29,683 nt of DNA from a virus. Shown piece after piece: positions 16,107-21,201 of this stretch. How positions within the stretch are numbered: the stretch's first letter is position 1; every line of letters starts with the position of its first letter. The stretch is from positions 1 to 29,683 of IMG/VR virus record IMGVR_UViG_3300000929_000387; one strand, given 5' to 3'. The notes beneath the pieces were generated by a model that ran no database searches, was not told the origin of the DNA, and saw only the letters and a program-made list of their open reading frames with translations. A program made the translations under genes and the position numbers.

Positions 16107-16592
16107 ATGGCTTATTCTGGAAAATATAAAGTTAAAAACCCATCAAAATATAAGGGAGACTATACTAATGTTGTTTATAGATCTCTATGGGAAAAATATT
16201 GTTTTAAATGGTGTGATGAAAATTCCAGCGTAAAATCATGGTCAAGTGAAGAAGTCGTAATACCATATTTCTATGAAGTAGATAAAAAGTATCATCGCTA
16301 TTTTATGGATTTAAAAATAACATATACAAATGAAATGACCGTACTTGTGGAAATCAAACCTAAAAAAGAAACCACACCTCCAACATTTAAAGGTAGAAAA
16401 ACTAAACAATATATCAATGAAGGTTTGACATATGTTAAAAATATGAATAAATGGGCTGCCGCGCAAAAATTTGCGGCTGACAATGGTTGGGGATTTGAGA
16501 TTTGGACTGAAGATACATTACATAAAATGGGGATTAAACCTAAATCAACAAAACCATTGAAACCATACAAAAAGACTTCAAAAACAATATAA
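16107..16592 (+). CDS. 4: Head completion protein gp4
   Basis: 161 residues, close to T4 gp4 (150). The opening MAYSGKYKVKNPSKYKGDYT and NVVYRSLWEKYCFKWCDEN is nearly identical in pattern to T4 gp4. A PD-(D/E)XK/TnsA-like nuclease signature can be traced: Glu29, Asp68 (FMDLK) and Glu82-Ile-Lys84 (VEIKPKK). The C-terminal WTEDTLHKMGIK is also conserved. In T4, gp4 (also called 50 or 65) is added to the head after packaging, before tail joining, and its catalytic fold suggests trimming of DNA ends. The SD is weak (GGAAATTC before ATG). It is the first gene of the rightward late unit; the stop codon overlaps the next late promoter. Confidence 0.92.
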   Translation: MAYSGKYKVKNPSKYKGDYTNVVYRSLWEKYCFKWCDENSSVKSWSSEEVVIPYFYEVDKKYHRYFMDLKITYTNEMTVLVEIKPKKETTPPTFKGRKTKQYINEGLTYVKNMNKWAAAQKFAADNGWGFEIWTEDTLHKMGIKPKSTKPLKPYKKTSKTI

Positions 16593-16620: not shown

Positions 16621-17208
16621 ATGAGTAACTTATTTCACAGTTTAGAAATAGAAGCGTTCCGTAAAGGACTTACGCTCAGATCACGTGAATCACGCGAGTG
16701 GTTTAGGAAACGCGTGGCCAATTTACGTCCAAATCGTAAAGAACTGATGAGAGAAGAACCAGTTCAACTTAAAGATCGTAGCCTTGTCGGTAGAATGTAT
16801 ATGTTCTATTATGACCCAAAAACAAAAGACACTTTACCATATTATGATTCTTTCCCATTAGTGATTGTTGTTGGTCCGGCGGAAGGTGGTTTTTATGGCT
16901 TAAACCTACACTATCTTCCGCCGACTCTCAGAGCTAAATTTTTAGATTCGCTTTTAGATGTTACGAATAATAGACTTTATGATGATTCAACAAAATTTAA
17001 AATTTCTTATAACATGTTACAACGTGCTGCCAAAATGAAATACTTTAAACCATGTTTTAAGCATTATCTCAATTCGCATGTTAAATCTAGATTTGCTATG
17101 ATTGAACCACCTGAATGGGAAATTGCAACATTTTTGCCAACTGCCGATTGGAAAAAAGGAAATGCAGCCATGGTTTATAAAGATTCCAAGAGGATAATAA
17201 ATGGCTAG
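16621..17208 (+). CDS. Conserved T4-like phage protein of unknown function next to gp4
   Basis: 195 residues. I recognise the type from marine T4-like genomes but cannot assign a role. Visible features are a basic N-terminus (RSRESREWFRKRVANLRPNR, residues about 21-40), a central conserved-looking patch (YYDSFPLVIVVGPAEGG, then FYGLNLHYLPPTLRAKFLDS, about 79-115), and a lysine-rich segment before a C-terminal FLPTADWKKGNA. The basic ends would suit nucleic-acid or packaged-DNA contact, and its place beside gp4 suggests head completion or DNA-end handling, but this is inference. Late promoter 16588-16595. Its stop overlaps the next gene by 8 bases. Confidence 0.6.
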   Translation: MSNLFHSLEIEAFRKGLTLRSRESREWFRKRVANLRPNRKELMREEPVQLKDRSLVGRMYMFYYDPKTKDTLPYYDSFPLVIVVGPAEGGFYGLNLHYLPPTLRAKFLDSLLDVTNNRLYDDSTKFKISYNMLQRAAKMKYFKPCFKHYLNSHVKSRFAMIEPPEWEIATFLPTADWKKGNAAMVYKDSKRIING

Positions 17209-17797
17209 TATAGAAGAATTAAAAAGTACGGTGAGTGCTGGGGGAGGATTTGCCTTTGCTCATCAATACATGGTTGAACTGCCGGCACTCCCTGGCAGTT
17301 CTTTAACTGGAAGAGAAAGAAATGCTCTATGTCGAGTGACTAGACTTCCTGGCCGTCAGATTCTTACAAACCAAAGAGAAATTGGTTTGATGAAACAACA
17401 AATAGCATATGGTTATGGCACTGAAAATATCGGATTATCATTCCACGTATTAAATAATTACGGGGCTAAAAAATACTTTGATATTTGGCAAGACCTTATT
17501 GTCAATCAAGTTAATCAGCAAATTTCTTATTCTACATACTATAAAAAATCAGTAAAAATTTATCAAGTGGAAAAAGGTCAAGCTTTTGCACTAGGTGAAG
17601 CTAATTTTAGTATTTTTGGACTTAATCTAAATATTGATGTTGACCTTCGTAGAAGTGAAAAATTAATTTATGGGGTTGAATTGGAAGATGCATTTCCTAT
17701 TACTGTAAATGGAATTGATTTAACGGATGCCTCAACTGACCAAACAATAGAAATTTCTATTGATTTGACTTATAAAAATTGGAAACGTATAATATAA
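17201..17797 (+). CDS. Tail-tube-fold protein (gp54- or gp19-like)
   Basis: 198 residues. The pattern follows the phage tail-tube fold: a hydrophobic start (FAHQYMVELPALPG), a CRVTRLPGRQILTNQREIGL segment (about residues 44-63), then GLSFHVLNNYGAKKYFDIWQ (about 78-97) and C-terminal beta strands ending in IEISIDLTYKNWKRI. T4 has three proteins of this fold (gp19 tube, gp48, gp54). gp48 is encoded in the opposite operon, so this is probably the initiator gp54 or a tube paralogue; length (198) is closer to gp19 (163) than to gp54 (320). The SD AGAGGAT lies 6 bases before the ATG. Confidence 0.6.
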   Translation: MASIEELKSTVSAGGGFAFAHQYMVELPALPGSSLTGRERNALCRVTRLPGRQILTNQREIGLMKQQIAYGYGTENIGLSFHVLNNYGAKKYFDIWQDLIVNQVNQQISYSTYYKKSVKIYQVEKGQAFALGEANFSIFGLNLNIDVDLRRSEKLIYGVELEDAFPITVNGIDLTDASTDQTIEISIDLTYKNWKRII

Positions 17798-17812: not shown

Positions 17813-18523
17813 ATGGCTTTGCCAGTAATTAATGAATCACCTAAATACAAACTGAAAATTCCATCAACTGGAAAAGAAGTATTTTATAGACCATTCTACG
17901 TAAAAGAACAAAAAGTTCTTCTTATGGCGATGGAAACCCAAGACCAAGAATTAATTTTAAGGTCAATGGTTGATACTATTGTTTCATGCCTACATGATAC
18001 AATTGATCCAAACACCCTTGCGACGTTTGATGTGGAATATATGTTCACTCAAATCAGAACAAAATCTGTAGGTGAAACTGCAGATATTCGCATTTCATGT
18101 ATTGAATGTGGTAAAGATAATGAAGTTAAAGTTAATCTGGAATCTATTACTATGGATGTGCCAAGTAAGATTCCAGAAATTAAACTAAATGATAAGTTTA
18201 CTTTAACTATGCGATATCCGAAATATACAAGTATGATTCAATCGTTGGGCGTAAATAAAAAACCAACATTTACAGATCTTCTTTTTAAGATGGCAATTGG
18301 AAGTTTAGATAAACTTCTTACTGAAGATGAAGTAATCCTTTTTGATGATGAATCTGATGAAGAAAAAAGTAAATTCCTCGATAATTTAAATTCAGATCAA
18401 TTTAAAGAAATTATGACATTTGTTCAAAGTATGCCTAAATTAGAAAAAGAAATCAATTTTAATTGTAAGCATTGCTCACACGAAAACACTCAAACTTTGC
18501 AAGGTATTCAAGATTTTTTTTAA
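17813..18523 (+). CDS. 26: gp26-like baseplate hub protein / tail assembly chaperone (zero frame)
   Basis: 236 residues (T4 gp26 is 208). The start PVINESPKYKLKIPSTGKEV and RPFYVKEQKVLLMAME is typical of the T4_baseplate family. Two CxxC pairs, Cys96/Cys99 (SCIECG) and Cys218/Cys221 (NCKHCS), probably bind one zinc and bring the two ends of the domain together. An acidic stretch lies at about residues 176-185. T4 gp26 and gp51 are needed for hub assembly, and by gene order they correspond to the lambda G/GT tail chaperones that coat the tape measure. The chain ends GIQDFF on a run of eight T, where a -1 shift would extend it by 60 residues. SD GGAG, 8 bases before ATG. Confidence 0.85.
   Translation: MALPVINESPKYKLKIPSTGKEVFYRPFYVKEQKVLLMAMETQDQELILRSMVDTIVSCLHDTIDPNTLATFDVEYMFTQIRTKSVGETADIRISCIECGKDNEVKVNLESITMDVPSKIPEIKLNDKFTLTMRYPKYTSMIQSLGVNKKPTFTDLLFKMAIGSLDKLLTEDEVILFDDESDEEKSKFLDNLNSDQFKEIMTFVQSMPKLEKEINFNCKHCSHENTQTLQGIQDFF
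18514..18521 (+). other. Probable programmed -1 ribosomal frameshift site (T8)
   Basis: Zero-frame codons are GAT TTT TTT TAA (18512-18523), containing the heptamer T TTT TTT followed directly by the stop. Slipping back one base reads on as TTA ATA AAC CTC into the open -1 frame that ends at 18702. The zero-frame stop immediately after the slip site and the location directly before the tape-measure gene are the usual design of GT-type fusions. No obvious strong downstream hairpin was seen by eye. Confidence 0.7.
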
Positions 18524-18702
18524 TAAACCTCTCTCATGAAACACTTATAAATTATTATCAAACCAATTATCAGCTAATGGAAAATCATCAATATTCTTTG
18601 AATGATTTAGATATGATGATACCCTGGGAGAGAGAAATCTACGTCACTATGTTGATCGAAGATCTGAAACAACGTGAAGAGGCAAGAAAAAAGAAATATT
18701 AG
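18520..18702 (+). CDS. -1-frame extension of gp26 (gp51-like / GT-type chaperone tail)
   Basis: 60 codons in the -1 frame relative to gp26, encoding LSHETLINYYQTNYQLMENH, then YSLNDLDMMIPWEREIYVTM and a Lys/Glu-rich helical end (EDLKQREEARKKKY). The first in-frame ATG is at 18577, in the middle of the conserved-looking part and without an SD, and the only earlier start is a TTG inside gp26, so independent initiation is unlikely. Joined to gp26 by a -1 shift it gives a chain of 296 residues. Short proteins of this pattern (helix, YSLxxLxxMxPWERxIY, charged end) follow gp26 in related phages as I recall them, and the position corresponds to T4 gene 51. It ends 18 bp before the tape-measure gene. 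Confidence 0.65.
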   Translation, partial: LINLSHETLINYYQTNYQLMENHQYSLNDLDMMIPWEREIYVTMLIEDLKQREEARKKKY

Positions 18703-18720: not shown

Positions 18721-21201
18721 ATGGCAGTTACTTTAGCAGAGATTAATGCTACCCTAGGAAACTTGGGACAAGAGCAAGAAAGGACGACGAAAGCGGTATT
18801 AACTGCTTCCGATAAAATCTCTGATGGTAATGCCGTCCTACAATCAGTTGCATCTAAAATTACCCAGCAAATGGAAGCCGCTGAAAAAAGTAGATTAAGC
18901 AGTCTGAATCAGAAAAATGTTGTTGGTTTAGGAAGTGTCCAAAACAATCCAGCTTCACCATCTAAGAGTGATGAAGCTGGATTTGGTGGAGGATTACTAG
19001 GAGGTCTAGGAGTCGGTTTAGGCGCTTTAGGCATGGGAATGAAAAAAGCAGCAACAGGAGTAGCCGCTTTAGGACTTGCTTTACCGGCATTCTTTGGAGG
19101 TTTGCTTGCAGGTAGTGCTGGATTAGAATGGTTACAAGATACTGCTGGATTAAATTTTGACGGTTTAAAAAAAGCTGCAATTGGATTTACTGATATAATC
19201 ATGGAAATGGATCCAAAAGCTTTTATAGTATTAGCCGGAATAATGGGTATTTCAGCGGTTGGTGGGACTCAATCAGCCAAAGGATTATCAACTATGGGAT
19301 TTGCTATTTCAGCTTTCCTAGGTGGATTATTAGCTGGTGATTTAGTATTTTCAGGCGTAAAAGCATTAGGCGGTAATTTAGATTTTGCTGGAATGAAATC
19401 TGCTATGGTAGGTTTCAGTGATATGATTACATCATTAGATCCTAAAGCAATAACAGTATTGGCCGGCATTATGGGCCTTAGTGCCATAACTGGTATGAAA
19501 AGTGGCGATCCATTAGGATCCGCAAAGGCTTTAGGAGCTATGGGACTAGGTATCAGCGCATTCCTAGGCGGATTATTATTAGGAAATGATATTTTCGAAT
19601 TTTCAGAAGCAATGGGAGCAAAGTTAGACTTCCCATCATTGCAGAAAGTCTTTGCTGGCTTTTCAATGGCAATTGAAACTTTAAGTCCTAAATCAATGAT
19701 TGCAATGGCTACACTACTGACGGCATCGAGTGCAATGGCCGCTTATGGTAAAGACAAGTCAACTGCATTGAATACTGTGGCGATAATGTCAGCTATGGGT
19801 GCTGGCATATCAGGATTTTTAATTGGTCTTACAATTGGAGATGTTGGTATAGGATGGTTAAGCAAAATTGGCGATGCTGACGGTACAGCATTGACATCTG
19901 CATTTAAAATGTTTGACAGTTCAATTGGGGCACTTTCAGTAGAAGGTATAGCTGCCCTTAGTGTGCTTATTGGCGCAGCAGCTCTAATAAAAACAGATCC
20001 AATAACTCTAGGTAAAAATATGCTAGGTTTGAGTGCCGGCATTGCTGGATTTTTAGGCGGATTAGTACTTGGCGAAAAGGGAATAAGTTGGCTTGGAGCA
20101 ATTCCATCTGGAAGTGAAGATGGATTAGTGTCAGCATTTAAAATGTTTAATGCATCTATATTGGCCCTAAGTCCTGAAGCCATGACAGCACTTGGTGTAT
20201 TAATGCTTGCTGCACCAGCCGGAACTGCAATTGCAACTGGATTGCCTATGATTGGAGTAGGTATTGCTGGATTCCTAGTGGCTTTAGCAGCAGGAGATGT
20301 TATTACAGCAATAGCTGCGTATGCAACCGGCGGTCAACCTGGTGAATCGTTAAAAATGTTACTTACTAATATTTTTGAAGGTTTGGGTGCTGCATCTGCA
20401 CTTGGTACAGGAACAGATCTAATTGCATTGGGTGCCGGTTTAACGGCTATAGCAGTTGGACTTGGGGCATTCGGGGTCGGTAATTTAGTTGGTACTTTAG
20501 CAAGCGTTGGAACATCTCTTTTAGAATGGATAGGCGTCGAAGGTCCAATTCCACAATTGCTATCACTAGCAAAAGAAGCCAGCAAATTAACTGAAGTTGC
20601 AAATGCATTAGAAGTTATCGCTAATGCATTAGGTAAATTTGCCTCAATTGAAATTGATACTGATAATGTTGATTTTAAAGGACTGGCAGAAAAATTGGGG
20701 CAAGCAATTCCAACTTTGAAAGCGCTTGCAACAGGTGGTTTTGTTGAGGGATCTGCTGGTTGGTTTAACGGTGGAATTACTTTCCCTGAAGGAGGCATTC
20801 TAAATCCAAATCTCAAACTAAATGAGATGGTAGAAGCAATTGGTAAAGTCAATATTATTCTTGGAAAATCTTTATCAATGCCAAATGGATCAGGAAGTAG
20901 TGGAGGCGCTTCTGTCTCAAATATAACTCCAGAAGGCGGAACAACTGTAGCTGATATTATTCAAAATGTTTCAATTGTAAAAATATCCGATGAAGTACTT
21001 ACTGCTTTAACCACCGCATTAATGCAACGAGATTACGCAGAAGTAACTGCAACATCTTCAGCTGGGGGAGGCAGTTACACTGATGCTAGATCTACGACCA
21101 TTGCGCCTTCAACATCTATGGGAATTTCAATGCCTATGGGTCCTACTGTTGATGTCTTAGATGGTGGATTTGCTGATAGAAGAGGCAGAGGTCCTAGATA
21201 A
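18721..21201 (+). CDS. Tail tape-measure protein (gp29-like role)
   Basis: 826 residues, longer than T4 gp29 (590). The N-terminal about 80 residues are helical and polar with possible coiled coil (LGNLGQEQERTTKAVLTASD). From about residue 95 to 600 the chain is a series of imperfect repeats of about 66-84 residues, each with a Gly/Ala/Leu-rich helix such as ISAFLGGLLAGDLVF or IAGFLGGLVLGEKGISWL. The C-terminus is Gly/Ser-rich and ends basic (FADRRGRGPR). Hydrophobic repeats, length and position right after the frameshifted chaperone all fit a tape measure, which sets tail length and enters the cell envelope during infection. SD AGGATAGGAC before ATG. It ends at a bidirectional terminator. 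Confidence 0.8.
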   Translation: MAVTLAEINATLGNLGQEQERTTKAVLTASDKISDGNAVLQSVASKITQQMEAAEKSRLSSLNQKNVVGLGSVQNNPASPSKSDEAGFGGGLLGGLGVGLGALGMGMKKAATGVAALGLALPAFFGGLLAGSAGLEWLQDTAGLNFDGLKKAAIGFTDIIMEMDPKAFIVLAGIMGISAVGGTQSAKGLSTMGFAISAFLGGLLAGDLVFSGVKALGGNLDFAGMKSAMVGFSDMITSLDPKAITVLAGIMGLSAITGMKSGDPLGSAKALGAMGLGISAFLGGLLLGNDIFEFSEAMGAKLDFPSLQKVFAGFSMAIETLSPKSMIAMATLLTASSAMAAYGKDKSTALNTVAIMSAMGAGISGFLIGLTIGDVGIGWLSKIGDADGTALTSAFKMFDSSIGALSVEGIAALSVLIGAAALIKTDPITLGKNMLGLSAGIAGFLGGLVLGEKGISWLGAIPSGSEDGLVSAFKMFNASILALSPEAMTALGVLMLAAPAGTAIATGLPMIGVGIAGFLVALAAGDVITAIAAYATGGQPGESLKMLLTNIFEGLGAASALGTGTDLIALGAGLTAIAVGLGAFGVGNLVGTLASVGTSLLEWIGVEGPIPQLLSLAKEASKLTEVANALEVIANALGKFASIEIDTDNVDFKGLAEKLGQAIPTLKALATGGFVEGSAGWFNGGITFPEGGILNPNLKLNEMVEAIGKVNIILGKSLSMPNGSGSSGGASVSNITPEGGTTVADIIQNVSIVKISDEVLTALTTALMQRDYAEVTATSSAGGGSYTDARSTTIAPSTSMGISMPMGPTVDVLDGGFADRRGRGPR
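19045..20530 (+). repeat. Tandem hydrophobic protein repeats in the tape measure
   Basis: Seven degenerate copies of a [I/L]xx[A/G]F[L/F]xGLLxG-type helix occur at about residues 122, 197, 280, 364, 443, 516 and 582. Several are followed by a WL or similar aromatic and by a linker such as DPKAITVLAGIMGLSA or LSPEAMTALGVLMLAA. The DNA copies have diverged, so this is old duplication rather than recent. Confidence 0.65.

Follow-up and report, generated by a model that had tools for sequence, protein, structure and literature searches.

The window, a 29,683-nucleotide stretch of a 34,455-base IMG/VR virus record from a marine T4-like phage, includes a T4-like structural region. It very probably carries a single predicted tail assembly chaperone gene in which programmed −1 ribosomal frameshifting would yield a short and a long form. 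This reading agrees with the initial annotation, which had suggested a chaperone of the lambda G/GT type. It was supported by a conserved slip site, a conserved tail in the −1 frame, the gene order and the paralogous genes of phage T4, and the function is predicted. The poly-T −1 slip of T4-like phages was reported in 2022, so the core finding was already known; what the present analysis adds is large-scale confirmation, a revised gene model and two details that can be tested.

gp26 and its −1 extension in the window

The features of the locus, all on the + strand, were as follows.

16107–16592, +: gp4-type head closure gene
16621–17208, +: gp2-type DNA end protector
17201–17797, +: tail-tube family gene (phrog_45; PHROG match, E 5e-21), directly upstream of gp26
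17813–18523, +: gp26, predicted short tail assembly chaperone (TAC-N, G-like), 236 aa; from profile matches
18501–18505, +: AAGGT before the slip site, weakly Shine-Dalgarno-like and a possible stimulator, with a stronger counterpart in most relatives; from duplex energy
18514–18520, +: slippery heptamer T TTT TTT, inside a run of eight T (18514–18521); from the sequence
18521–18523, +: gp26 stop codon TAA, directly after the slip codons; from the sequence
18520–18702, +: −1 frame extension, 60-residue gp51-like tail (TAC-C, T-like), including the stop codon TAG; from profile matches
18721–21201, +: probable tape measure protein, 826 aa, with many hydrophobic segments; from position, size and hydrophobicity

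The initial annotation had described a gp26 that ends in GIQDFF on eight T, a −1 slip that passes the stop and adds 60 residues, and a second open reading frame (ORF) without a usable start. All three points were borne out. The end of gp26 reads GAT TTT TTT TAA in the zero frame. A slip of −1 on T TTT TTT would bypass this stop and continue with TTA (18520–18522) as the next codon, up to TAG at 18700–18702. The −1 frame was open from 18469 to this TAG, and its only start codon upstream of the slip was a TTG at 18472, inside gp26; the first ATG lay in the middle of the tail domain. Positions 18520–18699 encode the 60 residues LINLSHETLINYYQTNYQLMENHQYSLNDLDMMIPWEREIYVTMLIEDLKQREEARKKKY, and the predicted fusion of gp26 and tail has 296 aa. 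Among the 6,797 codon positions of 18 window genes, an in-frame T TTT TTN occurred at seven, and only the one at gp26 was near a stop.

Profile searches assigned gp26 to the Pfam family T4_baseplate (PF12322, E 6.5e-56) and to columns 1–232 of the 282 columns of phrog_150 (E 1e-58). For the 60-residue tail there were two matches, one to phrog_634 (E 1e-21), annotated as baseplate hub assembly catalyst, and one to the C-terminal columns 236–282, the last 47, of phrog_150 (E 1e-7), which is the family of gp26 itself. A tail HMM matched the window extension with E 1e-29. Since the tail matched both phrog_634 and the end of phrog_150, the −1 ORF is not a chance ORF. Since it covers the last columns of phrog_150 and gp26 the first 232, the gp26 family includes single-chain members with the tail.

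A tape measure gene directly after the pair, as in lambda G/GT, had also been claimed, and the surroundings agreed with it. A tail-tube family gene was followed by gp26, the gp51-like tail and a large hydrophobic ORF in the tape-measure position. The upstream gene belongs to phrog_45, which both T4 gp19 and T4 gp54 matched in a profile search. The 826-aa ORF had no match in the profile searches; the ORF in the equivalent position of HTVC008M matched tape-measure PHROGs at 1e-11. By position and relatives, the window ORF is probably the tape measure gene.

We hypothesize that most ribosomes would terminate at TAA 18521–18523 and produce the short gp26 (TAC-N), and that a minority would pause at the junction of T TTT TTT and the stop, slip into the −1 frame and append the 60 residues of the gp51 tail. 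The resulting long form of 296 aa (TAC-NC) would be the rarer product. Both the slippage at the eight T and its rate are proposed from the DNA sequence. By analogy with lambda, the N-terminal domain common to both forms would coat the product of the next gene, the probable tape measure protein. The long form would recruit tail-tube subunits to it through its tail, and neither form would remain in the finished tail. Binding of the chaperone to tape measure and tube subunits is presumed from the same analogy.

Conservation of the junction among relatives

A tblastn search with a cutoff of E 1e-5 located gp26 in 698 phage records, at a single place in each. The isolates examined comprised Kyanoviridae cyanophages, pelagiphages, an Ochrobactrum phage, Straboviridae (QD01, PX29 and Cronobacter S13), and Stenotrophomonas, Acidovorax and Rhizobium phages. 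Their junctions read T TTT TTC, T TTT TTT or T TTT TTG, with the gp26 stop within a few codons and a conserved tail in the −1 frame. The same held for all IMG/VR loci analysed (80 of 80; gp26 33–46% identical), in which T TTT TTN was found 0–3 codons before the gp26 stop. Across the 240 loci with a gp26 profile match, the tail domain directly followed gp26 in the −1 frame in 234. The exceptions included T4 and 44RR, with the tail fused in gp51, and a one-base variant in IME-SM1. No tail was detected at three of the 240 matches (T4 gp26, EC-F2 gp26 and Vibrio K444).

Dereplication at 85% identity left 150 representatives, and T TTT TTN near the gp26 stop was kept in 144 of them. In 143, the stop lay 0–3 codons past the slip, and the last codon of the heptamer was TTC (70), TTT (64), TTA (7) or TTG (2). 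The 144th canonical representative, Pelagibacter phage Mosig, was found with a wider search window. An alignment of relatives had been proposed in the initial annotation. Once carried out, it showed conservation of the T-run, of the overlap and of the −1 ORF in at least five phage groups. The pattern thus spans a very wide group, with KVP40-size and Aeh1-size genomes, pelagiphages and cyanophages.

The slip codons themselves varied less than codon use would predict. The base before them was always T (expected 0.62 from the codon use of the same genes) and the first Phe codon was always TTT (expected 0.67). The naive probabilities of 1e-33 and 1e-30, respectively, are too small given shared ancestry; the representatives were less than 85% identical to each other.

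Three other explanations were weighed against programmed ribosomal frameshifting. Gp51 might be a separate short protein, with its own start or a restart at the gp26 stop. Many genome records annotate it in this way, with an internal ATG or TTG as its start, and the junction reads TAATG in phages of the KVP40 type and a few more. However, in 107 of the 143 representatives the −1 frame contained no ATG, GTG or TTG from the preceding stop to the fifth codon past the start of the slip. Peptide conservation set in immediately past the slip, in a stretch that lacks a start codon at most loci; translation from the internal ATG of the annotations would therefore truncate the conserved domain. The heptamer was, moreover, kept at synonymous positions, and T4 gp51 has the tail fused to a gp26-type domain. 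An independent start of the second ORF was therefore rejected for most loci, on the start-codon counts and the conservation from the slip onward, and we consider this explanation very unlikely overall.

Long homopolymer runs can cause slippage, and the window has eight T; RNA polymerase could thus add an extra base to the transcript, and the fusion would arise by transcriptional slippage. Against this, the run was only about seven T, ended by C, in the 70 representatives with T TTT TTC, and the −1 arrangement was kept in Ackermannviridae with [AG]TTTTC. What is conserved is the codon-phased heptamer and not the length of the run, which makes transcriptional slippage highly improbable. The second ORF could also be a remnant left by decay, or a sequencing or assembly error could have split one continuous gene; in favour of this, homopolymers are error-prone and the isolate IME-SM1 is one base off a near-identical genome. 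This possibility was refuted by recurrence, since 234 of the 240 loci, which come from independent sequencing projects, show the −1 arrangement and the tail is conserved as a protein; its probability is close to nil. Programmed −1 frameshifting was thus retained as the preferred explanation.

It also accounts for a systematic annotation error, in which the second ORF is given as a separate 'baseplate hub assembly catalyst' with a wrong start, or is omitted. In public records (loci L001, L003, L006, L010, L014 and L015), the tail was annotated as a separate short gene with an internal ATG or TTG start. The tail gene was omitted from the records of S-WAM2, S-CAM4 and S13. In none of the public records examined was the tail joined to gp26.

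Candidate stimulators and exceptional junctions

In the relatives, the 16 nt that end a few nt before the slip had a median pairing energy of −6.15 kcal/mol with the 16S rRNA tail (background in other parts of these genes, −1.1), and GGAG-like motifs began 12–15 nt upstream of the slip. This Shine-Dalgarno-like element, about 11–15 nt upstream, paired more strongly than synonymous shuffles (p 3e-12, shared ancestry ignored), and 48% of Glu codons in the region were GAG, compared with 24%. Downstream of the slip, RNA folding exceeded that of codon-preserving shuffles (mean z −1.2 to −1.3, shared ancestry ignored). In the window, the element AAGGT was weak (16-nt duplex, −4.0 kcal/mol), and RNA structure 3' of the slip site was not significant, with z above 0 at 45–70 nt. 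The stimulators are therefore a property of the family, and in this phage they are candidates at most.

The six non-canonical representatives were Ackermannviridae and Pseudomonas phage Cygsa01, with [AG]TT TTC at the equivalent place. In the Ackermannviridae (L017, L101, L124–L143) and Cygsa01 (L104), GAR ATT TTC ATY TAA or CAG GTT TTC ATC TGA replaced GAT TTT TTC. Their tail was still in the −1 frame, mostly with no usable start codon before it. This slip site resembles the GTTTTT motif of Vandenendeviridae (PMC12846349).

Two features may add to the published picture: the Shine-Dalgarno-like element located 11–15 nt before the slip, and the unusual slip site of Ackermannviridae. We tentatively suggest, as somewhat less probable than its opposite, that T4-like frameshift chaperones have a selected, dnaX-like stimulator that resembles a Shine-Dalgarno sequence and that [AG]TT TTC in Ackermannviridae still shifts by −1, both as yet unreported. 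If so, the Ackermannviridae site would mean that the P-site pairing rule is relaxed across the whole family.

Two further kinds of junction were seen. Phages of the KVP40 type (L008, L109 and L110) and Vibrio phage K444 (L016, 3190–3230) had TAATG or TAATGATG at the junction. Either sequence offers a −1-frame ATG where gp26 stops, from which a restart could add to or replace frameshifting. In K444, the slip site was weakened to CTT TTT. In Stenotrophomonas phage IME-SM1 (L161, about 3750), the T-run was one base shorter than in the near-identical L160, so that gp26 reads into another frame. This apparent +1 case was discarded as most likely a one-base homopolymer sequencing error, since L160 is nearly identical and normal.

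T4 paralogues, predicted fold and known systems

The abstract of the 2022 study of T4-like chaperone genes reportedly states that the frameshift is conserved in several T4-like groups and that the T4 group uses genes 26 and 51. In our profile searches, T4 gp51 covered columns 13–280 of phrog_150 plus phrog_634, and T4 gp26 only columns 14–235. All T4-group loci (36 of 36) carried both gp26, with the domain only, and gp51, with domain and tail. The stop of T4-group gp26 fell at the equivalent of the slip site, most proteins ending in GLKEFF plus 2–3 residues. The two genes were divergent, as in T4, at 32 of the 36 loci and in tandem on one strand at four. The domain is thus homologous between the window and both T4 proteins, and the tail between the window and gp51, but T4 has two divergently placed paralogous genes and the window one gene with a predicted frameshift. 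That the T4 group makes two products from paralogous genes is independent support for a short and a long form.

In an unrooted tree of the domain, T4-group gp26 and gp51 were placed on one side and all frameshift sequences, including those of other Straboviridae, on the opposite side (support 99/98). Taxonomy suggests that the two-gene state is derived. Frameshifting in a single copy and two paralogous genes would be two solutions to one need, and T4 gp26/gp51 can therefore be read as a separated G/GT pair. Both proteins are listed as T4 hub assembly chaperones, and gp51 is required yet absent from the particle (PMC3004832); other studies cited there place T4 gp26 in the hub.

The AlphaFold2 model of the window gp26 had a pLDDT of 93, and that of a T4-type gp51 a pLDDT of 91 with a helical C-terminal tail. 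No PDB entry matched the gp26 model significantly. The most credible match by Foldseek probability, although weak, was the HK97 tail assembly chaperone 2ob9 (probability 0.93 and 0.82, E 0.26, TM 0.24/0.48), which aligned with part of the larger gp26 at about 12% identity. Among the many predicted 'baseplate hub' proteins that the gp26 model also matched were gp26 and gp51 of the T4 group. The fold search with the gp51 model and the sequence search of solved structures with both alignments returned nothing. The modelled fold is suggestive, but not proof, of a tail assembly chaperone fold in gp26.

A 2016 review described G–T frameshifting as conserved in long-tailed phages 'except T4' (Atkins et al., PMC5009743). 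As cited in two later papers (PMC10885494, PMC12846349), Vladimirov, Gautam and Davidson (Virology 566:9–15, 2022) identified the T4-like chaperone genes. In the citing passages, PRFect (PMC10885494) refers to them on T4-like phages in which the short and the long chaperone each have a gene of their own. The Adele paper (PMC12846349) names them as the source for −1 slip signals of the poly-T kind in T4-like TAC-N genes. The window locus is a further member of this published TAC-N/TAC-NC kind. As far as these passages describe it, it has the same gp26/gp51 family and the same poly-T −1 slip, and it differs only in being an uncultivated phage fragment that was not individually described. The locus of Pakpunavirus Adele is likewise similar, with a T-rich −1 slip, a downstream ORF misannotated as a separate gene and the tape measure next, but it has the motif GTTTTT and belongs to a different family (PMC12846349). 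For T4-like Klebsiella phages, the supplement of a 2026 paper (PMC13119998) reportedly lists peptides from mass spectrometry that suggest frameshifts.

In lambda, the long form is made at a low level, and the model of short and long forms is summarised by Atkins et al. 2016 (PMC5009743). Lambda and the window share the order of tube protein, G, T and tape measure and a −1 shift just before the first stop, and the tube-family gene precedes gp26 in the window as V precedes G. The lambda slip site is G GGA AAG, unlike T TTT TTT in the window, and no sequence relation was detectable between the window gp26 and lambda G/GT. The N-terminal domain of gp26 is also larger than that of lambda and has paired CxxC motifs. 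The two pairs (C96/C99 and C218/C221) were invariant in an alignment of 12 proteins and look like a zinc site. Several cyanophage gp26 relatives lacked the pairs and had DDG and NPKT there.
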